Source: Gemmatimonadota bacterium
Lineage (GTDB): Bacteria; Gemmatimonadota; Gemmatimonadetes; Gemmatimonadales; Gemmatimonadaceae
Direction of reading: 5' to 3'
Assembly: GCA_026387935.1 (NCBI GenBank)
Contig: JAPLKU010000019.1
Span: 124,001-188,000 of the forward strand
DNA length: 64,000 nt
Shown piece after piece: positions 45,220-60,730 of this stretch. How positions within the stretch are numbered: the first letter of the stretch is position 1; the number at the start of each line of letters is the position of its first letter. The position numbers and the translations under genes are program-made. The notes beneath the pieces were generated by a model. The model saw only the letters and a program-made list of their open reading frames with translations, searched no databases and was not told the DNA's origin.

Positions 45220-46469
45220 CCGCACCGATCAACGGCGACCGCATCCGCGAAAACTTCGCCATCGCGATTGACAATCTCCGCGCGAACAAGCTCCGGAGCG
45301 GGCTGACTATCCTGGGGGTTGTCATCGGTGTGGCTACGGTGATGACTATGGCCACGATCGTCGATGGGATACAGTCGCAGATCGTACGATCGTTCGAAGT
45401 GGCCGGCCCGACGACGTTCTACGTGCTTCGGATTTTCAGCACGGCCCGCACCGACCCGAATAATCCTCCGAAGTGGATTCGCATTCGGCCGGAACTCACG
45501 CCGGCCGAAGCCGAGGCCATTGCCGCCCTCCCGGAAATCGCCTACTCCGCCATCTGGGCACGGGCCCAGGGCCGTATCGAGTACCTCGGTAGTCGGACGC
45601 AGCCGCTCGCCATCTGGGGCGCCGACGATCGCTTCACCGACGTGCAGGGGGGAGGCCTCGAGGCGGGTCGCTGGCCAACGCGGACGGAATTGAAGATCGG
45701 TGCTCCGGTCGGCGTCATTGACGCCGAGCGCGCACGGCAGGTCTTTGGACGGATCGAACCCATCGGAAAGACCATTCAGCTCGGCGGCCGTCCCTTGCAG
45801 GTAATCGGCCTCTACCGGCCACAGGACAATATTTTTCAGCCGCAGGGACAGGAGATCGGCGCCATCGTGCCGTACCGGTTTGCGCTCTACAACTTCACGA
45901 TCGATCGGCTGCGCTCCCTTTGGATTCCGGTGAAGCCGCGTGACGGTGTGTCCGTCACGGAGGCGCAAGAGGCGGTGACCGTACTGCTCCGTACGCGCCG
46001 CGGGCTGCGACCCGGCGACCCGGACACGTTCGACCTCGTCACGCAGGGCCAGATCCTGGACACCTTCAACAAGATCACCGACGCGTTCTTCCTCGTGATG
46101 ATCGCACTCGCATCAGTAGCCCTGATGGTCGGCGGGATCGGCGTCATGGCGATCATGACCGTTTCAGTCACGGCACGTACGCGCGAGATTGGCGTGCGGA
46201 AGGCGCTCGGTGCGACGCGCCGCGACATCTTGATTCAGTTCCTGACCGAAGCCGCGACGCTGACACTCATTGGTGGCGCGATTGGCATCGTGACCGGCCT
46301 CGTCCTCGGCCAAATAGCGACGACGTTGATCAAGATCGAGGCCACGACGCCGATCGGCTACACGCTCATTGCCGTCGCCGTCAGCATCCTGATCGGCGTC
46401 GTCTTCGGCGTGGCACCGGCCCGGCGGGCCGCCAAGCTCGACCCGATCGACGCGCTCCGGTACGAGTAG
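45216..46469 (+). CDS. MacB-type ABC transporter permease
   Basis: A 417-residue permease of the same family as its neighbour: an N-terminal segment (LTILGVVIGVATVMTMATIV), a periplasmic domain and the C-terminal FtsX domain with ARTREIGVRKALGATRRDIL. The ATG at 45216 overlaps the previous stop (ATGA), so the two are probably made in equal amounts and form a heterodimer. Their sequences are clearly diverged, so they are not a recent duplication. The ATPase must be encoded elsewhere. Confidence 0.9.
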   Translation: MTAPINGDRIRENFAIAIDNLRANKLRSGLTILGVVIGVATVMTMATIVDGIQSQIVRSFEVAGPTTFYVLRIFSTARTDPNNPPKWIRIRPELTPAEAEAIAALPEIAYSAIWARAQGRIEYLGSRTQPLAIWGADDRFTDVQGGGLEAGRWPTRTELKIGAPVGVIDAERARQVFGRIEPIGKTIQLGGRPLQVIGLYRPQDNIFQPQGQEIGAIVPYRFALYNFTIDRLRSLWIPVKPRDGVSVTEAQEAVTVLLRTRRGLRPGDPDTFDLVTQGQILDTFNKITDAFFLVMIALASVALMVGGIGVMAIMTVSVTARTREIGVRKALGATRRDILIQFLTEAATLTLIGGAIGIVTGLVLGQIATTLIKIEATTPIGYTLIAVAVSILIGVVFGVAPARRAAKLDPIDALRYE

Positions 46470-46579: not shown

Positions 46580-48541
46580 ATGCAGGCTGGGTCCACTGCT
46601 CGTCGCTCGAAAAAAGGCGCCAAGGAGTACGTCCGTATCACGCAGCCGATGGTGCGCGAGAACGGTGTCCTGAAGCCCGTGTCGTGGGATGTTGCCCTCG
46701 ACGCGGCTGCTGAGGGATTTCGCCGGAACATCGCGGCCCGCGGTCCGAATTCGACCGGCATTTTCTCCTGCTCGAAGTCCACGAACGAAGTGAACTTCGC
46801 GGCACAGAAACTCGCCCGTGTCGCATTCGGCACGCACAACATCGACAGTTGTAACAGGACGTGACACGCTCCTAGCGTCGTCGGTCTGGCGACGGTTTTC
46901 GGTGCAGGCGGAGGCACGAGTTCGTACGCAGAGGTCGAGGATACGGACGTCATCCTCCTCTGGGGTTCGAACGCGCGCGCCGCTCACCCCATCTGGTTCC
47001 ATCACCTCCTGAAAGGGGTGCACAATGGCGCACGCCTGTATGTGATGGACCCTCGCCGCACCGAAAGCGCCCAGTGGGGCGACGTCTGGATGGGTCTGCA
47101 CGTCGGGAGCGACATTGCGCTCTCGAATACGATGGCGCGCGAGATCATTCACGCGGGCGTCTACAACAAGGAGTTCGTCGCCAACGCCTGCTCCGGCTTT
47201 GAGGAGTACAAGGCGAGCGTCGAGTCGTACACGCTCGAAGTCGGCGAACAACTCACCGGCGTCCCGGCCGACGTCATCCGCGAATGCGCGCACACCTTCG
47301 CCAAGGCGAAGAAAGCGATGATCTGCTGGACGCTCGGCATCACCGAGCACCACGACGCCGCCGACAACGTCCTCGCGCTGATCAACCTCGGCATCCTCAC
47401 CGGGCACGTGGGCAAGTGGGGCTCGGGGCTCAATCCGTTGCGCGGACAGAACAACGTCCAGGGCGGCGGCGACATGGGCGCCATCCCCAACAAGTTTCCT
47501 GGCTTCCAGGATATTCTCGATCCCACTATTCGCGAACGCTTCGAGAAGCACTGGGGCGTGAAGCTCCAACCGAACCTCGGCTGGAACCTCACCGAAATGA
47601 TTCGCGCGATGGACCGTAAGGAACTCACCGCGCTCTATGTGATTGGCGAAAACCCGGCGCAGTCTGACGCCGACGCAAATCATGTGCGGCACTGCCTCGA
47701 AGGACTCGACCACTTGGTCGTGCAGGAGATCTGCATGACGAAGACGGCAGAGATGGCGCATGTACTGCTCCCCGCGAGCGCGAGCTGGTGCGAGAGCGAC
47801 GGCACGGTGACCAACAGCGAGCGCCGCGTGCAGCGCTGCCGCAAGGTGATTGACCCGCCCGAAGGCGCGAAGGACGAGCTCTGGATCATCAACGAAATCG
47901 CCAAGCGGCTCGGCAAGGATCTCAACGCCACGGATCCCGAAACGGTCTGGAATGAATTCCGCACAGTGGCGCCGCACTTTGCCGGCGGCATGAGTTACGC
48001 GCGCCTCGCGGAACATCAGGGACTGCAGTGGCCCTGCCCCGACGAGCACAGTCCCGGCGCGACCTTCCTGCACGATCGGCTCTGGAAGACGGGCGTCGAG
48101 CGCGGCATGGCGGCGCCATTCACCGTCGTGAAGCACGAAGGCCCGGTGGAGAAGCCGGACGTAGATTATCCGTTTACGCTCACCACGGGGCGTCATCTCG
48201 ATGCGTACAACACGGGCGTGCAAACGGCCGCGTACGGTTCGCCGCTCTTCCGTGGTGAAACGCTCGATATTTCGCCCGAGGATGCGGCAAAGATTGGTGT
48301 GATTGACGAAGACACCGTGCGCGTGACGTCGCGCCGCGGCTCGCTGCTCGTGCCAGTGCGCGTGGACCGGTCGCTGCGACCGGGACTGGTGTTCATGACG
48401 CTGCACTACCCCGACGAAGCAATGACAAACGTGCTGACGATTGATGCCTCGGATCCAAAATCGGGCACGGCCGAGTTCAAGGCGTGCGCGGTGAACGTGG
48501 TGCTCGCGACGAGCGCCGTGCGCGTGTACGCGAAGACATAA
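46580..48541 (+). CDS. Selenocysteine formate dehydrogenase, catalytic part of alpha subunit
   Basis: A 653-residue molybdo/tungsto-pterin formate dehydrogenase catalytic domain. An in-frame TGA at 46862-46864 (codon 95) lies in NIDSCNRT-U-HAPSVVGLA, exactly where formate dehydrogenases have Sec or Cys followed by His; the reading frame continues unbroken to 48541. A SECIS hairpin follows (46876-46894). Later motifs are typical: LLWGSNARAAHPIW, YVMDPRRTESAQ, CWTLGITEHHDAADNV, LNPLRGQNNVQGGGDMGA and YVIGENPAQSDAD. The [4Fe-4S] CxxCxxxC domain that should precede residue 1 is absent and is instead at the end of the 50451-51392 product. The four genes to 52208 are nearly contiguous and form one operon. 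Confidence 0.93.
46862..46894 (+). promoter_or_regulatory. Selenocysteine codon with SECIS element
   Basis: UGA at 46862-46864 is followed after 11 nt by CGTCGTC (46876-46882), loop GGTCT (46883-46887) and GGCGACG (46888-46894): seven base pairs, one of them G-U, with a GGUCU apical loop. The E. coli fdhF SECIS has the same 11-nt distance and the same GGUCU loop recognised by SelB. The upper stem sequence differs, so structure rather than sequence is kept. Confidence 0.9.
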
Positions 48542-48547
48542 TCGTCC

Positions 48548-50449
48548 GTGGACATCAAGATTTCCGACGCGACGCCGTCGCCAGATGAACGTGACGCCGT
48601 AGACCGGCGGCTCGGGCCGCCGCGCGCGTCATGGGATGGCGCAGAACTGCGCACTGCGCGCGACATGCATGTTGGGTTCGGCGGAAAGGAGCAACGCGAT
48701 CGCCGTCATCTGCTGCTGCCTGCGCTGCAGGCGCTGCAGGAACGCATCGGCTGGATCAGCGAAGGTGGCTTCAACTATGTCTGCGAGCGCCTGAGCGTTC
48801 CCCCCGCTGAGGCGTGGGGCGTCGCGACGTTCTACATGATGCTCTCGACGCAGCCGCGGCCGCGGCGCGTGCTGCATGTGTGCGACGACATCGCGTGCAA
48901 AGTGAAGGGTGCCAAGGAAGTGTGTCGCGGATTGCGCACGCACCACAGTCCCCCGCTGCCACATGGCGTGGTGGGCGGGCATTCGGAAGAACCGCGCGGC
49001 GCGCACGCCACGCTCAATGAGCATCATGGCGCGTGGACCACATCGCCCTGCCTCGGACTCTGCGATGTGGCACCGGCGGGCCTGCTGATTGAAGCCGGGC
49101 CAGTTGTGGTGGAACGATCTATTGGCGAACTGAGCTCCGAGTATGCGATGGGGCTGCTCGGCGGCGGCGCGGAACCCGATGATGTACTGACGCAGGCCAC
49201 GACCATCGGTGGCATCGGTGCACTCCGCCTGCTGAAGCGTATCGGCAAGGTCGATCCGACTTCCCTCGACGACTACAAGGCATCCGGCGGCTACAAGGCG
49301 CTGGAGAAAGCGTTTCAGCTCGGTCCCGAAGGCGTAATTCGCGAAGTCACTGAGGCCAAGCTGCTCGGGCGCGGCGGCGCGGCATTCCCCACGGGACGAA
49401 AGTGGGAAGCCGTGCGCACGCAGCCCGAGAAGACGCGCTACATCATCTGCAACGCGGACGAGTCGGAGCCGGGCACGTTCAAGGATCGCATTCTCCTCAC
49501 GGGTGATCCCTTCGCGCTCGTCGAGGCGATGACGATTGCCGCCTTCGCCGCCGGCTGTTCGCGCGGCTACTTCTACATTCGCGGCGAATATCCGCTGGCG
49601 GCCAAGCGGGTGCAGCACGCCATCGACATGGCCCGCGCAGCCGGGCTGCTCGGTCCGACCGTGATGGGCACATCGTTCGCCTTCGAGATCGAAGTGCGTC
49701 GCGGCGCCGGCGCGTACATCTGCGGCGAAGAAACGGCGATTTTCGAGAGCATCGAAGGCAAGCGCGGCGAACCGCGCAACAAGCCGCCCTTCCCGGTTCA
49801 GCACGGCCTGTTCAACAAGCCGACGATCATGAACAACGTCGAGACGCTGGCGAATGTGCTGCCGATCATCATTGACGGTGGCGCTGCGGCAGCGCGGATT
49901 GGCACCGAGCAGAGCGCAGGTACGCGACTCTTCTGCCTGAGCGGCCATGTGGCGAAACCCGGCGTCTACGAAGTCCCGATGGGCACCACGCTCGGCGAAC
50001 TCATGACACTCGCCGGCGGCGTGAGTGGCAACGGCACACTCCAGTGCGCACTCCTCGGCGGCGCGGCGGGATCATTCGTTCGCGCCGACGAAATGGGCCT
50101 GATCCTCACGCACGAAGACACGCGCGCAGCCGGCGTCTCACTCGGCTCTGGCGTCGTGGTCGCGTTTGACAGCTCGGTGGACATGAAGGACATCCTGCAC
50201 CGGATCGCGAAGTTCTTCCGCGACGAATCGTGCGGCCAGTGCGTCCCCTGCCGCGTTGGCACGGTGCGCCAGGAAGAGGCCCTGCACCGGATCGCCACGA
50301 AGAAAACCATTGGCGGCGTGAAAGGCGAACTCGCCTTGCTCGAAGAAATTGGCCTCGCAATGAAAGACGGTTCGATCTGTGGACTCGGCCAGACCGCGTA
50401 CGCCGCTGTCGAAAGCGCTATCAAGCGACTGAACTTGTACCCTGTCTGA
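48548..50449 (+). CDS. Fused NuoE-NuoF-type diaphorase subunit of formate dehydrogenase
   Basis: A 633-residue fusion of the gamma (FdsG/NuoE) and beta (FdsB/NuoF) subunits that pass electrons from formate to NAD. The N-terminal part (to about 210) has the [2Fe-2S] thioredoxin-like cysteines HVCDDIAC and SPCLGLCDVAP. The NuoF part has the FMN/NAD site LLGRGGAAFPTGRKWEAV and RGAGAYICGEETAIFESIEG, and the [4Fe-4S] cysteines in ESCGQCVPCRVG plus ICGLGQ. GTG start 6 bases after the catalytic gene. In Fds-type enzymes G and B are usually separate genes. Confidence 0.93.
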   Translation: MDIKISDATPSPDERDAVDRRLGPPRASWDGAELRTARDMHVGFGGKEQRDRRHLLLPALQALQERIGWISEGGFNYVCERLSVPPAEAWGVATFYMMLSTQPRPRRVLHVCDDIACKVKGAKEVCRGLRTHHSPPLPHGVVGGHSEEPRGAHATLNEHHGAWTTSPCLGLCDVAPAGLLIEAGPVVVERSIGELSSEYAMGLLGGGAEPDDVLTQATTIGGIGALRLLKRIGKVDPTSLDDYKASGGYKALEKAFQLGPEGVIREVTEAKLLGRGGAAFPTGRKWEAVRTQPEKTRYIICNADESEPGTFKDRILLTGDPFALVEAMTIAAFAAGCSRGYFYIRGEYPLAAKRVQHAIDMARAAGLLGPTVMGTSFAFEIEVRRGAGAYICGEETAIFESIEGKRGEPRNKPPFPVQHGLFNKPTIMNNVETLANVLPIIIDGGAAAARIGTEQSAGTRLFCLSGHVAKPGVYEVPMGTTLGELMTLAGGVSGNGTLQCALLGGAAGSFVRADEMGLILTHEDTRAAGVSLGSGVVVAFDSSVDMKDILHRIAKFFRDESCGQCVPCRVGTVRQEEALHRIATKKTIGGVKGELALLEEIGLAMKDGSICGLGQTAYAAVESAIKRLNLYPV

Positions 50450-50450
50450 C

Positions 50451-51392
50451 ATGACCTCGCCCCACCTGCAGCTCGTCCAGCTCTCCCGCCCTGCCACCAC
50501 CCCAAAGGTGATGGTCGAGCTGTCTGTTGATGGCCACAGTGTGAAGGTTCCTGAGGGCAGCACCATCCTGAACGCCTGCCAGCAACTCGGCATCGAAGTG
50601 CCGACCCTCTGCTGGCTCGAGACACTGAAGCCCGTGAACGTCTGCCGCGTGTGCGTCGTGGAAGTTGAAGGCGCACGCGTACTCGTGCCGAGTTGCTCGC
50701 GCACGGTGGAACCGGGGATGAAGGTGAAGACGCGAAGCGATCGCGTGAACCTCACGCGCAGGCTCGTGCTCGAAATGCTCGCGTCGTCGGTTGACCTGTC
50801 CACGGCACCGGGCATGGCCGAGATGCTCGCGGAGTATGATGCGAAGCCGGAGCGTTTTGGTCCTGACGCCGAGACGGTGGCGCAGCCGGTGAAGGTGGAC
50901 AACGATTTGTATATCCGCGATTACGCCAAATGCGTGCTCTGCTACAAGTGCGTGGAGGCGTGCGGCGAAGATCATCAGAATACGTTTGCGATTGCCGTGG
51001 CTGGGCGCGGATTCCACGCGCACATCTCGACGGAGTTCGTGGTTGAACTTCCCGAGTCGGCGTGCGTGTACTGCGGCAACTGCATCGCGGTATGCCCTAC
51101 TGGCGCGCTGATGTCCAAGCGCGAATGGGAACTGCGTCAGGCCGGCACCTGGAATGAGTCGAAGCAGACCGCGACGGATACGGTGTGCCCTTTCTGCGGC
51201 GTGGGCTGCACACTCACGCTACATGTGCAGGACGGCGAGATCGTGAAGGCGACCTCTCCGCTCGACAACGACATCACGGTGGGCAATCTCTGCATCAAGG
51301 GCCGCTTCGGTTGGAGGCATGTGCAGAACGGGCACGCCTCGCGTGGACCGAGTGCCGATCCCACAGCGCCGCGCGCTCCGGCGAACCACTAG
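50451..51392 (+). CDS. Fe-S N-terminal part of formate dehydrogenase alpha subunit
   Basis: A 313-residue protein equal to the N-terminal third of a full FdsA/FdhF subunit: a [2Fe-2S] ferredoxin domain (about 18-95, cysteines in CWLETLKPVNVCRVC and VLVPSC), two [4Fe-4S] sites (YAKCVLCYKCVEACGEDHQN and CVYCGNCIAVCP) and then the bis-MGD-enzyme cluster domain with CPFCGVGCTLTLHV and NLCIKGRFGW (the Lys of CIKG passes electrons between cluster and metal in FdhH). It stops shortly after, where a full subunit would continue into PLIRRNG. The continuation is the 46580-48541 gene. Confidence 0.92.
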   Translation: MTSPHLQLVQLSRPATTPKVMVELSVDGHSVKVPEGSTILNACQQLGIEVPTLCWLETLKPVNVCRVCVVEVEGARVLVPSCSRTVEPGMKVKTRSDRVNLTRRLVLEMLASSVDLSTAPGMAEMLAEYDAKPERFGPDAETVAQPVKVDNDLYIRDYAKCVLCYKCVEACGEDHQNTFAIAVAGRGFHAHISTEFVVELPESACVYCGNCIAVCPTGALMSKREWELRQAGTWNESKQTATDTVCPFCGVGCTLTLHVQDGEIVKATSPLDNDITVGNLCIKGRFGWRHVQNGHASRGPSADPTAPRAPANH

Positions 51393-51395
51393 TCC

Positions 51396-52208
51396 GTGAC
51401 CGACCTCGGCCGTCTCCCGCCGGCGCAGTCGCGCGGGTTTGTTCGGATTGACGGCGGCGCTTCGTCGCAGGAATCAGCGCAGGTCGCTGAAGAAATACCC
51501 GTCGCTTTTGTCTATGGCGGCAAGCCGCATGTGGTGATGATGTGCACGCCGGCCGATCTCGACGATCTCGCGGTTGGGTTCACACTGAGTGAAGAGATTG
51601 CCTCGCGCGCGAGTGACATTGCGCGACTCGACGTGGTGCGCCATGCGCGCGGCATTGAAGTGCAGATGGAACTGCCGCCCGAGGCACAGGCACGTGTCGC
51701 CAATCGCACGCGCGCACTCGCGGGCCGCACCGGTTGTGGCCTTTGCGGAATAGATGCGATTGAGAACGCCATTCGCCCACCGCACATCGTGACATCGAAG
51801 GCGACGTTCACCGCAGCCGCGATCACGCGCGCCGGTGATGCGCTCGCAGCGCAGCAGCCCGTGAACAATGAAACGCGCTCGGTACACGCCGCGGCGTGGG
51901 CGACCGCGGACGGCACGCTGCACGTTGTTCGCGAGGATGTCGGCCGGCACAACGCCCTCGACAAAGTGATTGGTTCCCTCGCGCGCTCGAATACCGATCC
52001 ATCGTCCGGCTTTTTTGTGGTGACCAGCCGCGCCAGCTACGAACTCGTGCAGAAGGTAGCCGTCAGCGGCTCTCCACTCCTCGCGGCCGTCTCCCGCCCC
52101 ACCGGCCTGGCGATTCGGTTCGCCGAAGACGCCGGCCTCACGCTGGTCGGCCTTCTGCGCGGCGCAACCGCCAACGTCTACACGCACTCCGCCCGTATCA
52201 CACTGTAG
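51396..52208 (+). CDS. fdhD: Formate dehydrogenase accessory sulfurtransferase
   Basis: A 270-residue FdhD protein, which moves sulfur from IscS to the bis-MGD cofactor so that formate dehydrogenase becomes active. It has the conserved CxxC in TGCGLCGIDAIENAI, the flexible DLAVGFTLSEEIA, and the later TSRASYELVQKVAVSGSPLL. GTG start 3 bases after the previous stop, so it belongs to the formate operon. Confidence 0.95.
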   Translation: MTDLGRLPPAQSRGFVRIDGGASSQESAQVAEEIPVAFVYGGKPHVVMMCTPADLDDLAVGFTLSEEIASRASDIARLDVVRHARGIEVQMELPPEAQARVANRTRALAGRTGCGLCGIDAIENAIRPPHIVTSKATFTAAAITRAGDALAAQQPVNNETRSVHAAAWATADGTLHVVREDVGRHNALDKVIGSLARSNTDPSSGFFVVTSRASYELVQKVAVSGSPLLAAVSRPTGLAIRFAEDAGLTLVGLLRGATANVYTHSARITL

Positions 52209-52246: not shown

Positions 52247-53914
52247 ATGTTGTCAGACATTGCCATCGCGCAGTCCGTCAAACCGCGCCCCATCACCGAT
52301 GTCGCGCGCGAATTGGGCCTCAGCCCCGATGACATCGACCTCTACGGCAAGTTCAAGGCAAAGCTCCCTGACGAGGTGAGCCAGCGGCCGAGCAAGGGCA
52401 AGCTCGTCCTCGTCACCGCCATCAGCCCCACGCCCGCTGGCGAGGGCAAGAGCACGGTGAGTGTTGGCCTCGCCCAGGCACTGCGCAAAATCGGCACGAA
52501 CGCCGTGCTCTGCATTCGCGAGCCATCGCTAGGCCCAGTGTTCGGTGTGAAAGGTGGCGCCGCGGGCGGCGGGTATTCGCAGGTCATTCCGATGGTGGAC
52601 ATCAACCTCCATTTCACGGGCGACTTCCACGCGATTTCGAGTGCGCATTCACTCCTGAGCGCGATGCTCGACAACTCGATTTTCCAGGGCAACCCGCACA
52701 ACATCGGCACGGACCGCGTTACCTGGCCGCGCACCATTGACATGAACGATCGCGCGCTACGCCACGCCACGATTGGCTTGGGCGGCGGCACGAATGGCAT
52801 CGAGCGCAAGGAACGCTGGGTGATTATTCCTGGTTCTGAGGTGATGGCGATCGTCGCACTCGCGTCGAGTCGCGCGGATCTCGAGAAGCGACTCGGCGAC
52901 ATCGTTGTTGGCGCCACCGCCGGCGACGAGCGCCGCCCCGTGCGTGCGCGCGAGCTCAAGGCCACCGGCGCGATGACGATTCTGCTCAGCGATGCCATCC
53001 GTCCCAACCTTGTGCAGACGCTCGAAGGCGGCCCCGCCCTTGTGCACGCAGGCCCGTTCGGGAATATCGCGCATGGCTGCAACTCCATTCTCGCAACGAA
53101 GGCTGGCCTCGCGCTCGGCGACGTTGTTGTCACGGAAGCGGGCTTTGGATCGGACCTCGGCGCAGAGAAGTTCTTCGACATCAAATGCCGCTTTGGTGGG
53201 CTGAACCCGGAGGCCGCCGTGCTCGTGGCTACGGTGCGCTCACTCAAGATGCAGGGCGGCCTCGACAAGAAGCAGCTCACCACCGAGGACTTGGGCGCGC
53301 TCGAAAAAGGACTGCCCCACCTAGAGCATCATATCAGGAATGTGCAGCAGTTCGGCGTGCCGGTGGTCGTCGCGATCAATCGCTTCGCCGCTGATACCGA
53401 CGCTGAACTCAAGATGGTCGAGAATCATGCCGCCAAGCTCGGCGTGCGCGTGGTGCTCTGCGAGGTGCATGCGAAGGGCGGCGCGGGCGGCGAGTCACTT
53501 GCGCGCGAAGTGATGGCCATGCTGAGCGCTGGCGGCTCGCACTACGCTCCGCTCTATGACACGAAGCTCCCGATCAAGGACAAGATCGACACCATCGTCA
53601 GGAAGGTGTACGGTGGCGACGGCGCCGACTATAGCGAAGCCGCCCAGGGGCAGATCGCGTATCTCGAGGCGAACGGCATGGGCGCGACGCCAGTCTGCAT
53701 CGCGAAGAATCAGTATTCACTGACCGACGACGCCACCAAGCTCGGCAAGCCGACCGGTTTCCGCATCGCCATCAAGGAAGTGTACGGCTCGGCGGGCGCG
53801 GGATTCGTGGTCGCAAAGGCGGGCACGATCATGACGATGCCCGGGCTGCCCAAAGTGCCGGCCGCCGAGGGGATGTCGATCGATGCGAAGGGCGAGATTA
53901 TCGGGCTGTCGTAG
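52247..53914 (+). CDS. fhs: Formate-tetrahydrofolate ligase
   Basis: A 555-residue ligase that uses ATP to join formate to tetrahydrofolate, making 10-formyl-THF. The P-loop is in SPTPAGEGKSTVSVGLAQAL; other family segments are EPSLGPVFGVKGGAAGGGYS, the LHFTGDFHAISSAH segment and NPHNIGTDRVTWPR-like sequence. Length equals the family. There is no clear ribosome site. Following fdhD at 38 bases, it links the formate module to folate C1 metabolism. Confidence 0.97.
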   Translation: MLSDIAIAQSVKPRPITDVARELGLSPDDIDLYGKFKAKLPDEVSQRPSKGKLVLVTAISPTPAGEGKSTVSVGLAQALRKIGTNAVLCIREPSLGPVFGVKGGAAGGGYSQVIPMVDINLHFTGDFHAISSAHSLLSAMLDNSIFQGNPHNIGTDRVTWPRTIDMNDRALRHATIGLGGGTNGIERKERWVIIPGSEVMAIVALASSRADLEKRLGDIVVGATAGDERRPVRARELKATGAMTILLSDAIRPNLVQTLEGGPALVHAGPFGNIAHGCNSILATKAGLALGDVVVTEAGFGSDLGAEKFFDIKCRFGGLNPEAAVLVATVRSLKMQGGLDKKQLTTEDLGALEKGLPHLEHHIRNVQQFGVPVVVAINRFAADTDAELKMVENHAAKLGVRVVLCEVHAKGGAGGESLAREVMAMLSAGGSHYAPLYDTKLPIKDKIDTIVRKVYGGDGADYSEAAQGQIAYLEANGMGATPVCIAKNQYSLTDDATKLGKPTGFRIAIKEVYGSAGAGFVVAKAGTIMTMPGLPKVPAAEGMSIDAKGEIIGLS

Positions 53915-54042: not shown

Positions 54043-54984
54043 ATGACAGGCACAGGATCATATCAGCCGTGGATCCCGCCGGTGCGGAGGGAGGAGGCGT
54101 ACGTCGGCTGGATTCGCCGGTACGTCGCGTTCCACGGCACTCGTCACCCGCAACTCCTCGGTGAGCGCGAAATACTCGCATTCATGACGCATCTCGCCGT
54201 GAGTGCCAAGGTCAGTGCCTCGACGCAAAATCAGGCGCTGGCGGCGCTGCTGTTCATGTATCAGCAGGTCTTACGGCAGCCGATCGGTGACCTGTCGCGG
54301 ATGGTGCGCGCCAAGAAACCGGCACGACTGCCGAGCGTTCTCACGCGCGAGGAGACACGCCTGGTGATGGCAGAGATGCGCGGCGTGACGCGACTCGTCG
54401 CGTTGCTTCTCTATGGAGGCGGCCTGCGGTTGATGGAGAGCCTTCGCCTGCGGGTCCACGACGTCGACTTTGAACGACAGGTGCTGACGGTGCGGGGCGG
54501 GAAGGGCGACCGCGACCGCGTGACGGTGTTGCCACGCGCGGCGATTCCCGCGTTACGGGCGCAGTTGTTGAATGTTCAAAGCCGGCACGTGCTCGACCTG
54601 ACAGCCGGTCACGGGTGCGTCGAGCTTCCCGGAGCGCTCGACCGCAAGATTCCATCGGCGCCGCGGGCCTGGGAATGGCAGTGGATATTTCCTGCGTCCA
54701 GGTTGTATGTCGATCGCGCCACCGGTGAGATGCGACGGCATCATCTCCATGAGACAGTAGTACAACGCGCTGTGACTGAAGCCGCGCGCCGGAGCGGTGT
54801 GACTCGGCGTGTGAACTGCCACACGTTTCGGCATTCGTTTGCGACGCACTTACTCGAAGACGGATACGACATTCGAACCATTCAAGAGCTGATGGGCCAC
54901 CGGGATGTCCGCACGACGATGATCTACACCCACGTGCTCAACCGCGGCGGCCGAACCGTGAACAGTCCGGCAGACCATATGTAG
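54043..54984 (+). CDS. intI: Integron integrase
   Basis: A 313-residue tyrosine recombinase. The IntI-specific extra helix region is present ([20 protein letters not shown], then [18 protein letters not shown] and [14 protein letters not shown]), which separates it from XerCD and phage integrases. Catalytic residues: Arg in [14 protein letters not shown], His-Arg in [13 protein letters not shown], His in [10 protein letters not shown] and Tyr in [10 protein letters not shown]. Slightly shorter than class 1 IntI (337). It recombines attC sites as folded single strands with attI. The start at 54043 is the first in-frame ATG. Confidence 0.95.
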
Positions 54985-55227
54985 CGACCCGCGCGGCCTG
55001 GATGTGCTTCTCTAGAACCCTATGAGCGACTTGTTGATCGCTGCCGGTTTAGGCTGCGACGCCTCGCAGCATTTTCACCACCTCGCAGTGACCCAGATCA
55101 CGCCAACCCGTTTGCGCGCGGTGACTTGCAGCCCGATATTCAATCCACTCCCGTCACAAGGCAGCGAATCCATGCAGTCTTTCACGCAGCTTCGCAGCCT
55201 AAACAGACGGTCTAATACTCGTTATGC
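54985..55227 (+). other. Candidate attI region with inverted repeats
   Basis: This region between intI and the first cassette gene ends in a core site GTTATGC (55221-55227). It contains GTTTAGGCTGCGA (55047-55059) and, 132 bases on, its exact complement TCGCAGCCTAAAC (55192-55204); the first copy can also pair with TCGCAGC at 55064-55070 as a tight hairpin with a 4-base loop. An open frame of 99 codons (55021-55321) crosses it but has no coding signs. By position it should hold attI, at the 3' end of intI. Confidence 0.55.
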
Positions 55228-55252
55228 GCATCGAGCTAGGGTGATCTTGGCC

Positions 55253-55281
55253 TTGCATTCGGTATATGCCCATCATATACT
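55253..55281 (+). promoter_or_regulatory. Promoter of brnTA-1, likely leaderless
   Basis: TTGCAT (55253-55258), 17-base spacer, TATACT (55276-55281); the ATG starts 6 bases after, at the expected transcription start. Confidence 0.7.
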
Positions 55282-55287
55282 GTGTCC

Positions 55288-55596
55288 ATGCTCGATATCG
55301 ACGCGCTCCTTGGCGGAATAGAGGGCTTTGAGTGGGACGCCGGCAATACGGCCAAAAACGTGCTTGGCCACGACGTCACTCAATCGGAAGCCGAAGAGAT
55401 CTTCTTTCACGCCCCGGTCGTCTTGCTTGAGGACGCCAAGCATTCCACGACCGAGCGTCGGTTTTTGATTTACGGTCCGACGAATGCGGGCCGGCTACTC
55501 ACGGCTGCGTTCACGATGCGAGCCAAGCAAGTGCGCGTCATTTCGATCCGAGACATGAGCCGCCAGGAGCGCCGCAGATATGCCAAAGCCCCGTAA
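55288..55596 (+). CDS. brnT: BrnT family ribonuclease toxin
   Basis: A 102-residue toxin of the BrnT family (RelE-like fold, mRNA cleavage). Family signs: IEGFEWDAGNTAKNVLGHDV, EAEEIFFHAPV, HSTTERRFLIYGPTNAGRLL and ISIRDMSRQERRRY. The brnA start overlaps its end by 17 bases. It is the first cassette gene after intI. Confidence 0.9.
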   Translation: MLDIDALLGGIEGFEWDAGNTAKNVLGHDVTQSEAEEIFFHAPVVLLEDAKHSTTERRFLIYGPTNAGRLLTAAFTMRAKQVRVISIRDMSRQERRRYAKAP

Positions 55597-55897
55597 GAAG
55601 CTGAAGCCGATTCCACGCTTTCGCTCGCATGAAGAAGCGGGCGAGTTCTGGATGACGCACGACACGACCGAGTACCTCGACTGGAGCAAGGCGCGGCGGG
55701 TGTCATTCCCCAACCTGCGACCGTCGACGGCAACGATTTCACTTCGCCTGCCGCAGGGCCTGCTGGATGAACTGCGAACGCTCGCAAATCAGCGCGATGT
55801 GCCGTACCAGTCGCTGCTGAAGGTGTACCTCGCCGAGCGTATTGCCCAAGAGCGGCGCCCCGTGCGGCCGCGACGACGATCGCGTGCGAGCGCATAA
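55580..55897 (+). CDS. brnA: BrnA family antitoxin
   Basis: A 105-residue antitoxin with an N-terminal Lys/Pro-rich part, the conserved EYLDWSKARRVSFPNLRPS and a ribbon-helix-helix DNA-binding end (ATISLRLPQGLLDELRTLAN, VPYQSLLKVYLAERI). It neutralises BrnT and represses the operon. Its TAA stop lies inside the R'' core of the cassette's attC (GCATAAC). Confidence 0.9.
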   Translation: MPKPRKKLKPIPRFRSHEEAGEFWMTHDTTEYLDWSKARRVSFPNLRPSTATISLRLPQGLLDELRTLANQRDVPYQSLLKVYLAERIAQERRPVRPRRRSRASA

Positions 55898-56020
55898 CCA
55901 AGGGTTGGTGCCGTCGTGGCGTGCGGCGAGCATGAACGTGTTGCGCCTTCGAGCTTGGCGTGCGAGCATCAATGTGTCGCGCCCGGCGAGTGCCACGCGG
56001 CACAACCCTGATCGTTATGC
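55892..56020 (+). other. attC site 1 (129 bp)
   Basis: R'' GCATAAC (55892-55898), L'' GGGTTGGTGCCG, L' CGGCACAACCC and R' GTTATGC (56014-56020). The arms pair over most of their length. It ends the brnTA-1 cassette. Confidence 0.9.
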
Positions 56021-56055
56021 AAGCACCCGGGGATCGTCGCTTCGGTGAGGTAGGC

Positions 56056-56084
56056 TTGCGCGGGTATACGAAATATTGTATACT
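56056..56084 (+). promoter_or_regulatory. Promoter of the higBA-like operon, likely leaderless
   Basis: TTGCGC (56056-56061), 17-base spacer, TATACT (56079-56084), then 5 bases to the GTG start. Confidence 0.7.
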
Positions 56085-56089
56085 TCGCC

Positions 56090-56425
56090 GTGATCACCAA
56101 GGACGTTGTCTGGGTCGGAACCTCGCGCGCTGACCTTCGGGCATTACCCGAATTGGCTCGGCGCCAGCTGGGTTTCGAGCTGCGCGAGGTTCAGTCCGGC
56201 GGCCTGCCACAGGACTGGAAACCCATAACGACCGTTGGGTCAGGCGTCATAGAGATGCGCGTCCGCATCGATGGGGCGTTTCGTCTGATGTACATCGCCA
56301 AGTTTGCCGAAGCGATTTATGTGCTACACGTGTTCCAGAAGAAGTCACAGAAGACGTCACCGCTCGATCTGGCCGTGGCCAAGGCACGGCTCGCGGCGGT
56401 TCGACGTACTCGCCGGGGAGGGTAG
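56090..56425 (+). CDS. RelE/HigB-like toxin (phage Gp49-type)
   Basis: A 111-residue RelE-superfamily toxin of the HigB/Gp49 type, which cuts mRNA on the ribosome. Visible: WVGTSRADLRALPELARRQL, IEMRVRIDGAFRLMYIAKFA and the C-terminal YVLHVFQKKSQKTSPLDLAV motif. GTG start. The antitoxin gene begins 4 bases after its stop, in the toxin-first order of higBA. Confidence 0.87.
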   Translation: MITKDVVWVGTSRADLRALPELARRQLGFELREVQSGGLPQDWKPITTVGSGVIEMRVRIDGAFRLMYIAKFAEAIYVLHVFQKKSQKTSPLDLAVAKARLAAVRRTRRGG

Positions 56426-56429
56426 CCAC

Positions 56430-56729
56430 ATGGCCATTCGTATGCAACGATCGTCGGGCAACGTGTTCACCGATGCCGGGTTCCCGAAAGAGGAAGCGGC
56501 GCACCTTCTCATTCGCGCGGATCTCATGATTCAGCTTAAGGCGCTCATCGAGGAACGTGGACTGACGCAGAAGAGCGCAGCGGAAGCACTCGGTGTGACG
56601 CAGCCTCGAATCAGTGATCTGGTCCGTGGCCGCATCGATCTGTTCAGCATCGATACGCTCGTCGAGATGCTCACGCATCTGGGCGTCGCGGTCACGCTCA
56701 AGACCAAGCGCCGCGCGCGTGTTGCATAA
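56430..56729 (+). CDS. XRE/HigA-like antitoxin
   Basis: A 99-residue antitoxin with a helix-turn-helix of the XRE type (LKALIEERGLTQKSAAEALG, VTQPRISDLVRGRIDLFSID). The N-terminal 30 residues (SGNVFTDAGFPKEEAAHLLI) match the family that partners Gp49-type toxins. Its stop codon overlaps the R'' core of attC site 2. Confidence 0.9.
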   Translation: MAIRMQRSSGNVFTDAGFPKEEAAHLLIRADLMIQLKALIEERGLTQKSAAEALGVTQPRISDLVRGRIDLFSIDTLVEMLTHLGVAVTLKTKRRARVA

Positions 56730-56849
56730 CTAAGGGTTGCTGCTGCCGCGGCGCGGGCACTCGTAGCAATTCGCGCCCTGGCGTTTTGCGCAGTAGCATC
56801 AATGGCAGTGGCCCGCAGGGCCGCGCAGCAGAGCCCAAGCTCGTTATGC
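56724..56849 (+). other. attC site 2 (126 bp)
   Basis: R'' GCATAAC (56724-56730), L'' GGGTTGCTGCTGC, L' GCAGCAGAGCCC and R' GTTATGC (56843-56849). It contains the CATCAATG segment also seen in other attC sites here. Confidence 0.9.
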
Positions 56850-56871
56850 GTCCCAAACGCGTCGATCTCGA

Positions 56872-59013
56872 TCAACGAGGCGGAGCGGGGCGCGCCGGGA
56901 GCGGCCCAAAACCGGGGGGCGGCACGCGGTGTTTCGTCTTTGCCTCGTAGGCCGACCCGATCCGCAGTAACATCGGCTCCCCGAACGGCAATCCCAGGAA
57001 GTCGATCCCGATCGGAAGTCGCGCCGGCGTCGGGCCGGTGAGACGAAGGCTGTCGCGCGGCGCGCTCCCTCGTCGCGTCGTATCGCGCGGCGTCGTATCG
57101 CGCACACGGTCATACGTGATCGTGGTGAACCCGGCGGGGACAGTCATCGCCGGGAAGCCCCTGCTATTCACGAAGGACCACACGCCGGGGGGCCGGTCAT
57201 TCTTCACCGGCTCGTCCGGGTTCGTCAGGATGGGCGCCGGCACGCTTCCCGACGGATAGAGCACGGCGTCGAGATTGTGCTGCGCAAACGTCGAAAAGAC
57301 GATCGTCTGGACCACGAAGCGATCGGCCAGCGCGTTCCCGACTGCTAGCGTCATGACCGAATCGCCGCGGATCATCGCGGTGCGGCGGTTGGTGAACTGC
57401 GAATCGTTCCAGAAGTTGGCCTTCTCGACCAGATCGTGGTTTCGCTTGATGATCGCATCGCTGCGTTCACGGAGGTACGTCTCCACGTTGTACTTCGCGT
57501 CGCCGACATCGCCGTCACCCGCGGTTGCGCCACGCCCAGCTGCTGCACTTCCGGGGCCGCGTGCCCCTCCGGTCCCGCGCGCACCGGGCACAAGTGTCGT
57601 GTCCGCCGTGCCGCGCCCGCGCCCGCCTGCAGGTCCGCCTCCACCGCCGCGAGCGCCACCCAGGCTGCGAAAGTTCGGCCGGCCGGCCGAATCATGTGGC
57701 ACGAGCTTTGGGTCGGCGTACATATCCACGAGCTTCGCGATGTGATCGGTCGAGTCCGGAAACACCGCGGGGAACTGACGGATGAAGGCAGCGCTTCGCC
57801 ATGCCGGCACGACCCGGTCCACGGCATCCTGGAAGAGCGCCCCGCCCGGCCCCGGGTCCACAATGGTTGCGCCGAGCGCGCGGAGGTCGGCAATCGCGCG
57901 TTCGATGAGCGTGATGGACTCCGTGTCTGCGACCGAGAGGAGCTCGCGATTCATGTACTCGCGGACGACGCCGATCCGGACGCCATCGAGCCGCCCTCCC
58001 CGTGCGAACGTAGCGTACGGCTGGGCCGGCTTCCGCCCCATGCTGAACGCGGTCAGTTCGTCCTTGGGATCGTAGCCCGCGTAGGCGTCGAGGATCCGGG
58101 CGACGTCGCGCACCGTGCGGCAGATTGGGCCGACGCGCGTGATGATGCCGCGCTGCATCATTCCATTGGCGCTGACCAGCTCACGCGTGGGCGCGAGCCC
58201 GACCGCGCTCGCGTTCTTCGCCGGTTCGCGAACGGACGTGCCGGATTCCTCCGCGATGGCGCAGGTCACCAGGTTCGCGCCTACCGAGTTCCCCGAGCCG
58301 CCGCTCGACGCGCCGGGGTCTCGCTCCGTGTCATACGCGTTGCAGTTGACTCCGCCGAACCCGCTGCGCGTACCGGGAATTCCGCCCTGCGCATACTCCC
58401 CCATGTTCGCCTTGGCGAGGATGATCGCCCCGGCGGCCCGCAGCCGCGTCACGAACGTGGCGTCGTCGGGTGGACGGTCGTTCGCGTAGAACGCGTCGGC
58501 GCCCGACGTCGTTCGCATATCACGCGTGTCGTACTGGTCCTTGATCGCCAGCACGACGCCGTGCAGCGGACCGACCAGCTTGCCGGTACGCGCGAACTGC
58601 GCGTCCTGGGCGGCCGCCACCTCTAACGCGTCGGGCATCGTGGAATCGCTGTCCGTGGCGTCAGTCATACTGCGGCCCTTGCGATCGTCGAAGCCCCATG
58701 CGCGGCGCGTCGCCGGCCGGAGGTTCAGCGTGAGCAGGGCATTGATCTTTCCCGCGTTCCTGATCGTCGTGACCTTGCCGAGGATTCCCTGCGGCTCGTT
58801 CACGCACGCGCCGTTGTAGGCCTTGATGCGCGCGAGGTAGAGTTCGACCAGTCGCTTCGACGTAATCTCTTTCCGCTGGATGGCGGACTGGATGCTCTCG
58901 ATCGTGGCTTCTTCGACCCGGAAGGGCGCGCGTTGCGCGAGCCCCGGCCGGCCAGGGAAATGGAGGAGAGCGGCGGCGAGTGCGAGCGCGGTCACGGCGC
59001 GGAAGGAGCGCAT
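56872..59013 (-). CDS. Exported amidase-signature enzyme in reversed cassette
   Basis: A 713-residue amidase of the amidase-signature family, with a signal peptide (VTALALAAALLHFPGRPGLA). Ser-Ser-Lys triad: Lys in GVVLAIKDQYDTRDMRT, central Ser in DPGASSGGSGNSVGANL, and the nucleophile loop EESGTSVREPAKNASAVGL. It is much longer than the usual 450-500 residues, mainly because of a Gly/Arg-rich insert near residue 450-500. It lies against the cassette direction, between attC 2 and attC 3. The Gly/Arg insert resembles those of chromosomal genes in this window, which suggests a related source. Confidence 0.9.
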   Translation of the reverse strand: MRSFRAVTALALAAALLHFPGRPGLAQRAPFRVEEATIESIQSAIQRKEITSKRLVELYLARIKAYNGACVNEPQGILGKVTTIRNAGKINALLTLNLRPATRRAWGFDDRKGRSMTDATDSDSTMPDALEVAAAQDAQFARTGKLVGPLHGVVLAIKDQYDTRDMRTTSGADAFYANDRPPDDATFVTRLRAAGAIILAKANMGEYAQGGIPGTRSGFGGVNCNAYDTERDPGASSGGSGNSVGANLVTCAIAEESGTSVREPAKNASAVGLAPTRELVSANGMMQRGIITRVGPICRTVRDVARILDAYAGYDPKDELTAFSMGRKPAQPYATFARGGRLDGVRIGVVREYMNRELLSVADTESITLIERAIADLRALGATIVDPGPGGALFQDAVDRVVPAWRSAAFIRQFPAVFPDSTDHIAKLVDMYADPKLVPHDSAGRPNFRSLGGARGGGGGPAGGRGRGTADTTLVPGARGTGGARGPGSAAAGRGATAGDGDVGDAKYNVETYLRERSDAIIKRNHDLVEKANFWNDSQFTNRRTAMIRGDSVMTLAVGNALADRFVVQTIVFSTFAQHNLDAVLYPSGSVPAPILTNPDEPVKNDRPPGVWSFVNSRGFPAMTVPAGFTTITYDRVRDTTPRDTTRRGSAPRDSLRLTGPTPARLPIGIDFLGLPFGEPMLLRIGSAYEAKTKHRVPPPGFGPLPARPAPPR

Positions 59014-59503: not shown

Positions 59504-60730
59504 CTACACTTGCTCGATCGTGACCTGGCGGGTGTAGTAGCGGGAGTCGAGCCGACGTTGTGGTACGGTGGGGTCGGCGACCTTGAGCGCGATGTCGTAC
59601 GTCCCGGGCGTGGTCGGCTTCCATGTGTATTCCCACAACGACCACATGACGTGCGTCTTGGGAGTTGGACACACCTCGAACGGTTCGTACGGCCCATTCA
59701 CGGCGGCGGTCGCCGCCGCGGCGCCAGCATCGGGCCTGGGGCTTCGGGGTTGAATCCGGATCGCCAGCTGATCGACTGCTTTCGTGCCACCCCACAAGAT
59801 CCCGACGATTCGGTAGTGGATGCCCGATGCGGTGCGTCGTTGCTCTACACGCACCGGTGTTGCGGCGGTCTGGATTTCGGCTGGCGCGTATTCCCGGGCG
59901 AGCTTGAACGACTCGGCCTGGTGCGTTCGGCCGGCGAACTCGGTCATCTGCGTGGTGGCCGGTTCATCAGGGCCGACGAGGCGAATCTCGTTCACCCACT
60001 TGATCCAAGTGCAGCCGTACCAGCCGGGGACGACAAGCCGAACGGGCTTGCCATGGTCCGCTGGTAGCGGCTCGCCATTCATACGTACGGCGAGGAACGC
60101 GCCGAGTTTGTTGAGCGAGGCAAGCGGGAATACCCAACTGGCGCCGACGGTGGAGCGCGAGGAGACCTGTCCGACGTGGTCGAAGCCGCTCACGAGCACG
60201 CCCGTGGCATCGCTGCCGGGCTTGAGGCCGGCCACGATGTCGGTCAGCGGAATGCCGTCCCATTCGGCAACGCTCATGAGGCCGAAGTTCGACGGATTGG
60301 CGTTTCCGGAGCATTCGAACAAGTGCGGGCCCATGCTCCTCGCCTGCTTGCTGATGGCGTCGAGGTTGAGCGTGCCGTCCTTCTCGAGTCGGCCGCCGGT
60401 GGCAATGGTCCATGGCCCCGTGTGGGCCGCAGCGGCCGCCGGGATCTCGGTACGGATATAGGCCAGGTCGTTGGCGGTGATCAGCTTGCCTGGCTCGAGA
60501 AGCGAGAGGTCGGTCACCATGCGTGCATCGAGCCCTGATCCTCCGTATTTCACGCCGAAGGCCTGTAACTGCCGCCCCAGCGGCAGCGTGCCCAGCAACT
60601 CGCCGACCGGGGCCGACGGCGTGCAGGGGGCACCGGTGGCGAGCCAATCCGGTACACTACCGCGGTCGAACAGAGTAGCTGCGCCAGCGCCTGCCAGCGA
60701 GAAAAGAACTTGTCGGCGAGTGGGATTCAT
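59504..60730 (-). CDS. Sulfite-oxidase-like molybdopterin enzyme, Tat-exported
   Basis: A 408-residue protein of the sulfite oxidase/YedY type. The twin-arginine signal is PTRRQVLFSLAGAGAATL. The Moco domain has the Mo-coordinating Cys in HLFECSGNANPSNFGLM and the pterin-binding ADHGKPVRLVVPGWYGCTWI; a C-terminal dimerisation domain follows. There is no heme domain, so a separate electron acceptor is needed. It is reversed within its cassette. The Moco-enzyme theme recurs with xdhC and the formate dehydrogenase. Confidence 0.88.
   Translation of the reverse strand: MNPTRRQVLFSLAGAGAATLFDRGSVPDWLATGAPCTPSAPVGELLGTLPLGRQLQAFGVKYGGSGLDARMVTDLSLLEPGKLITANDLAYIRTEIPAAAAAHTGPWTIATGGRLEKDGTLNLDAISKQARSMGPHLFECSGNANPSNFGLMSVAEWDGIPLTDIVAGLKPGSDATGVLVSGFDHVGQVSSRSTVGASWVFPLASLNKLGAFLAVRMNGEPLPADHGKPVRLVVPGWYGCTWIKWVNEIRLVGPDEPATTQMTEFAGRTHQAESFKLAREYAPAEIQTAATPVRVEQRRTASGIHYRIVGILWGGTKAVDQLAIRIQPRSPRPDAGAAAATAAVNGPYEPFEVCPTPKTHVMWSLWEYTWKPTTPGTYDIALKVADPTVPQRRLDSRYYTRQVTIEQV

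Follow-up and report, generated by a model that had tools for sequence, protein, structure and literature searches.

The catalytic chains of formate dehydrogenases (FDHs) normally include a [4Fe-4S] domain at their N-terminus. FDHs that use selenocysteine (Sec) are in themselves a known and ordinary kind. E. coli FdhF (FDH-H) has its own N-terminal [4Fe-4S] domain, is a member of formate hydrogenlyase and has no diaphorase. In FdsABG of R. capsulatus (PDB 6tg9), a NuoE/NuoF-like diaphorase accompanies FdsA, a single chain of 958 aa that joins the HoxU-like ferredoxin, the [4Fe-4S] (Fe4S4) and the molybdenum (Mo) domains. In Actinomycetospora chiangmaiensis DSM 45062, formate is reported to accumulate without selenium and hardly at all with selenium, three Sec FDHs are predicted, and one of them, FDH3, is cytoplasmic, is called NAD-dependent, consists of subunits of 640, 614 and 316 aa with a predicted Sec and was detected by proteomics (PMC7176365).

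The locus described here lies in a window of 64,000 nucleotides, whose contig is assigned to Gemmatimonadota from its closest named relatives (85–87% identity), and it is a variant of the FdsABG/FdhF kind. By sequence match, it resembles FdsABG in its NuoE/NuoF-like diaphorase, HoxU-like ferredoxin, Fe4S4 and Mo domains, and it resembles FdhF in the Sec-His active site, the SECIS position, the GGUCU loop and the catalytic fold. Unlike FdsABG, it has a permuted gene order and fused NuoE and NuoF parts; unlike FdsA, it is cut after the Fe4S4 domain and has a predicted Sec in place of the active-site Cys of FdsA. Very probably, the product of the locus is a soluble, NAD(H)-linked Sec FDH with a catalytic chain encoded in two pieces by two genes. 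The split catalytic subunit, and not Sec, is the unusual feature, which was missed in the earlier note on this DNA.

The first of the two genes (46580–48541, forward strand) is an fdhA-type gene for a Mo/W-bisPGD catalytic chain of 653 aa, with Sec as residue 95 and without an N-terminal [4Fe-4S] domain; the assignment draws on TIGR01591, Pfam, an AlphaFold model and residue mapping onto E. coli FdhF. The TGA at 46862–46864 (forward strand) is the sole interruption of this frame, shares its phase with the ATG at 46580 and the stop at 48539–48541, and stands in the context NIDSCNRT-U-HAPSVVGL, so that the coordinates, phase and context agree with the earlier description of two in-phase frames split by this codon. 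Alignment with E. coli FdhF revealed that U95, H96 and R288 correspond to U140, H141 and R333. The Pfam domains Molybdopterin (PF00384) and Molydop_binding (PF01568) indicate that the bis-PGD-binding domains are present, and the AlphaFold monomer model (mean pLDDT 79.3) matches FDH-H (1fdi) with a TMq of 0.85.

Standard gene calling without recoding yields an ORF of 105 aa (from TTG 46547) and an ORF of 507 aa (from GTG 47018), as it would if the UGA were a true stop within a decaying pseudogene or between two separate short proteins. Against a true stop, the residues flanking the UGA on both sides are invariant across the family, and the same codon occurs in every split Gemmatimonadota homolog and also in relatives from two more phyla. 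A real truncation in close relatives was sought and none was found, with all Gemmatimonadota homologs of at least 62% identity carrying the same UGA. The codon at this position could be read in 70 homologous loci, including a few duplicate fetches; it is UGA in 59 of them and a Cys codon in the other 11.

Downstream of the UGA, a candidate bacterial SECIS hairpin spans 46876–46894 (forward strand), with a 7-bp stem (46876–46882 paired with 46888–46894) and a GGUCU loop at 46883–46887. It starts exactly 11 nt after the UGA, the geometry that had been claimed for it, and the E. coli K-12 fdhF gene indeed has GGUCU at the same position, 22–26 counted from the U of its UGA. Single-sequence folding of the 39-nt stretch gave an energy that is not significant (z = −0.65), with the minimum-energy structure in a slightly different register, and an Rfam search of the UGA region returned one chance match and nothing relevant; the case for the hairpin therefore rests on conservation and covariation, together with the position seen in E. 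coli fdhF. The GGUCU loop and all six inner stem pairs are formed in 59 of 59 UGA loci, and GGUCU is absent from 11 of 11 Cys-codon loci. In 46 distinct UGA sequences, 95.7% of the stem cells are paired and four pairs are changed on both sides, and none of 500 shuffles reached the observed value on any measure. Several of the stem changes are synonymous and affect third codon positions, as does the change of the 18–30 pair from C-G to G-C. A covariance model of the hairpin gave one strong match in the whole genome, at this locus (61.3 bits), with the next at 17.5 bits. Four Actinomycetota Cys homologs group together (SH-aLRT 100) within the Sec clade and no longer have the loop, which is the pattern expected of Sec-to-Cys replacement. 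This covariation, with the hairpin lost exactly where Cys replaces Sec, also argues against a true stop. Split FDHs with Cys for Sec and a lost SECIS loop, placed inside the Sec clade, were observed in the Actinomycetota loci L137–L140, several of them in genomes of 6–10 Mb.

The source genome (2.8 Mb, 95% complete) contains selA, selB and selD as well as a tRNA-Sec (79.5 bits; ARAGORN anticodon tca), the last located on contig C25 about 110 bp after selD. The presence of the complete selA/selB/selC/selD set had been named beforehand as a test, and the full machinery further opposes the reading of the UGA as a stop, which we regard as extremely improbable. The sequence comparisons lend good support to UGA 46862 as a selenocysteine codon. 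It had also been stated that selenoproteins are little reported in organisms of this kind; the literature is sparse, and a search of it, incomplete in coverage, returned no report of selenocysteine in Gemmatimonadota, yet Sec use is not rare, with selA found in 221 of 298 sampled Gemmatimonadota genomes (74%). Comparison of two lists from this 298-genome sample placed selA in 31 of the 33 carriers of the split gene, and selA is present in 7/7 separately tested UGA-carrying genomes. At the threshold used, no FDH was matched in some of the selA-bearing Gemmatimonadota genomes, a hint that there are other selenoproteins. Other families of Gemmatimonadota commonly have a second FDH, which is unsplit, measures about 920–1000 aa, has one in-frame TGA and a GGUCU hairpin, and was observed in the genomes G054, G056, G075, G199 and others (L098–L100).

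Analysis of the catalytic frame with the TIGR01591 Fdh-alpha profile indicated that it matches positions 52–672 only and, because the first domain is missing, falls under the single-chain cut-off (658.5 versus 666.25 bits). A Pfam search found no Molybdop_Fe4S4 domain (PF04879) in the 46580–48541 protein, and a missing N-terminal part could not fit in upstream, where the neighbouring gene ends at 46469. The earlier note had taken this ORF as a complete FDH catalytic subunit, which does not hold, the iron-sulfur domain being encoded elsewhere in the operon. Since the in-cis cluster domain was tested for and is absent, we do not count the locus as a full member of Fdh-alpha, a single-chain family.

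The missing profile positions (1–50) match residues 244–293 of the protein encoded at 50451–51392 on the forward strand (43.4 bits). This protein of 313 aa is a HoxU/NuoG-like ferredoxin subunit, with the ferredoxin part in its first 235 residues and the FDH [4Fe-4S] domain fused at its C-terminus, as identified by Fer2_4, Fer4, Molybdop_Fe4S4 and the matches to TIGR01591 and FdsA. The relocated domain comprises residues 241–293 (51171–51329, forward strand; PF04879, 1.2e-17), in which C246, C249, C253, C281 and K283 correspond to C8, C11, C15, C42 and K44 of E. coli FdhF. Comparison with FdsA (6tg9_A) revealed that the two proteins tile it, with residues 306–933 covered by the catalytic chain and residues 23–303 by the ferredoxin subunit, so that in this alignment the break falls cleanly between domains with no overlap. 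The cluster ligands and the active-site residues are conserved on two different chains.

The split chains might form no normal FDH, with the Fe4S4 domain serving another partner and the catalytic chain lacking a proximal cluster or using a different acceptor. Known FDH catalytic chains have this domain in cis, and the model of the HoxU-Fe4S4 monomer is poor (mean pLDDT 58.6), both of which would fit such an arrangement; nevertheless, we consider it quite unlikely, as the operon with the catalytic chain invariably also has the Fe4S4 domain and the two are complementary without overlap, none of the four Cys nor the Lys that matches FdhF K44 varies among 25 aligned homologs, and only one FDH-like gene was found in the genome at the threshold used.

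Between the catalytic gene and the HoxU/Fe4S4 gene lies a gene for a fused diaphorase subunit of 633 aa (48548–50449, forward strand), which combines a NuoE/FdsG-like [2Fe-2S] part with a NuoF/FdsB-like FMN/NAD/[4Fe-4S] part (Pfam 2Fe-2S_thioredx, Complex1_51K, SLBB and NADH_4Fe-4S; NuoF/NuoE models). On the 3' side, fdhD (51396–52208, forward strand; TIGR00129, 200.8 bits, above cut-off) encodes the FDH accessory sulfurtransferase and adjoins the operon in most relatives. It is followed by the gene for formate-tetrahydrofolate ligase (FTHFS; 52247–53914, forward strand; PRK13505, 805 bits, above cut-off), which is found downstream in many relatives of the same family and is likely a functional partner of the FDH. 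Both neighbours, fdhD and the ligase gene, speak for the assigned function.

Directly 3' of the ligase gene, an integron integrase is encoded at 54043–54984 (forward strand; TIGR02249, 407 bits versus a cut-off of 265). It is followed by small ORFs (54985–56872) with an attC-like inverted repeat (55047–55062/55189–55204, GTTTAGG...CCTAAAC), and the small genes at about 55282–55897 and 56090–56729 look by eye like toxin-antitoxin pairs. This region of integrase and attC-like repeat may be a chromosomal integron. Farther along, at 59504–60730 on the reverse strand, lies a gene for a SoxC/SorA-like protein of the sulfite-oxidase family, which is far below curated cut-offs (65.7 versus 420 bits).

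The HoxU and Fe4S4 parts are fused in frame in 51 of 51 Gemmatimonadota and Actinomycetota loci that cover the region (48 distinct), and three Bacillota loci with the same split bring the total to 51 distinct loci in three phyla. The gene order in the split loci is invariant: Mo, then the fused diaphorase (GB), then U/Fe4S4. Longer upstream fusions, such as the open frames in L161, turned out not to be real extensions, with Fe4S4 downstream there too. A close UGA homolog was present in 33 of 298 sampled Gemmatimonadota genomes; matches at E ≤ 1e-170 came from 44 of 396 sampled Actinomycetota genomes, a few of them being unsplit or having Cys; and the split was found in at least 3 of 299 sampled Bacillota genomes. 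A plasmid search returned only relatives below 60% identity, the best at about 41%. In a phylogeny of 65 catalytic chains, a single change accounts for the split, which defines one clade (SH-aLRT 87). The sister group consists of unsplit chains with 51–53% identity from Mesobacillus and some Actinomycetota, in which the UGA is present. These relatives (Mesobacillus maritimus L059/L165 and Actinomycetota L145–L149) share the UGA and the GGUCU SECIS with the locus but differ from it in having Fe4S4 contiguous with the catalytic domain.

Two routes to the split differ in its origin only. In one, an ordinary fdsGBA operon was circularly permuted by tandem duplication and trimming; in the other, the Fe4S4 domain moved from an FdhF-like unsplit ancestor onto the HoxU gene. 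In favour of the first route, a circular permutation of GB-(U+Fe4S4+Mo), as arranged in L061 and L164, gives Mo-GB-(U+Fe4S4). Against it, the nearest unsplit relatives (L059 and L145–L149) have a single chain with Fe4S4 and Mo, and neither HoxU nor the diaphorase was matched in the stretch covered. The Fe4S4 domain, at 50 residues, is too short to be placed reliably on a tree. We give circular permutation slightly less than an even chance; it is a possible origin that the catalytic-chain tree does not favour.

The subunits of A. chiangmaiensis FDH3 (640/614/316 aa) are a close fit to those encoded in the window (653/633/313 aa), and FDH3 is, judging by subunit lengths and annotation, probably a described relative. 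The split family is therefore not wholly unseen, a probable member having been detected by proteomics; the passages of PMC7176365 on FDH3 make no mention of a relocated iron-sulfur domain. The literature search, which was incomplete, returned no description of a split FDH catalytic subunit, and this is weak evidence of absence; the "split genes" of PMC7325909, considered as a precedent, are acsE and other genes and not FDH. We think it likely that the family represents an undescribed architectural class of FDH: a selenoenzyme that receives its cofactor-proximal [4Fe-4S] domain in trans from the electron-transfer subunit, has one origin, has come to be distributed among Gemmatimonadota, Actinomycetota and Bacillota, and includes a natural Sec-to-Cys series.

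The analysis establishes the order of the genes, their domains, the conserved residues and the covariation of the SECIS. In the scheme that we infer, from Sec insertion through complex formation and NAD linkage to the direction of the reaction, SelB and Sec-tRNA would, judging by comparison, read UGA 46862 as Sec by means of the hairpin at 46876–46894. Sec95 and His96 would form the Mo/W active site, at which formate would be oxidised. The electrons would leave the cofactor via the [4Fe-4S] cluster at the C-terminal end of the HoxU-like subunit, and this subunit would have to dock onto the catalytic chain. Homology to FdsABG suggests that their onward path would run along the ferredoxin clusters and over the FMN/NAD diaphorase to NAD+. 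With the [4Fe-4S] domain provided in trans, the contact between cofactor and cluster would be a subunit interface. The three chains most likely assemble into one soluble NAD-dependent Sec FDH, which FdhD would mature. As FTHFS shares formate as a substrate, the enzyme may be placed in one-carbon metabolism.

The metal-dependent FDHs matched here have the cluster proximal to the active site inside the catalytic chain, whereas the split family has it on another subunit. Assembly, maturation and electron entry could therefore be dissected as separate pieces, which is relevant to the engineering of CO2/formate catalysts. Sec and Cys versions also occur naturally within the family and can be compared, with the SECIS kept or lost accordingly. 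Standard annotation truncates the UGA-containing gene and also misses why it looks incomplete. In Gemmatimonadota, selenocysteine use is common, though the literature reports little of it.
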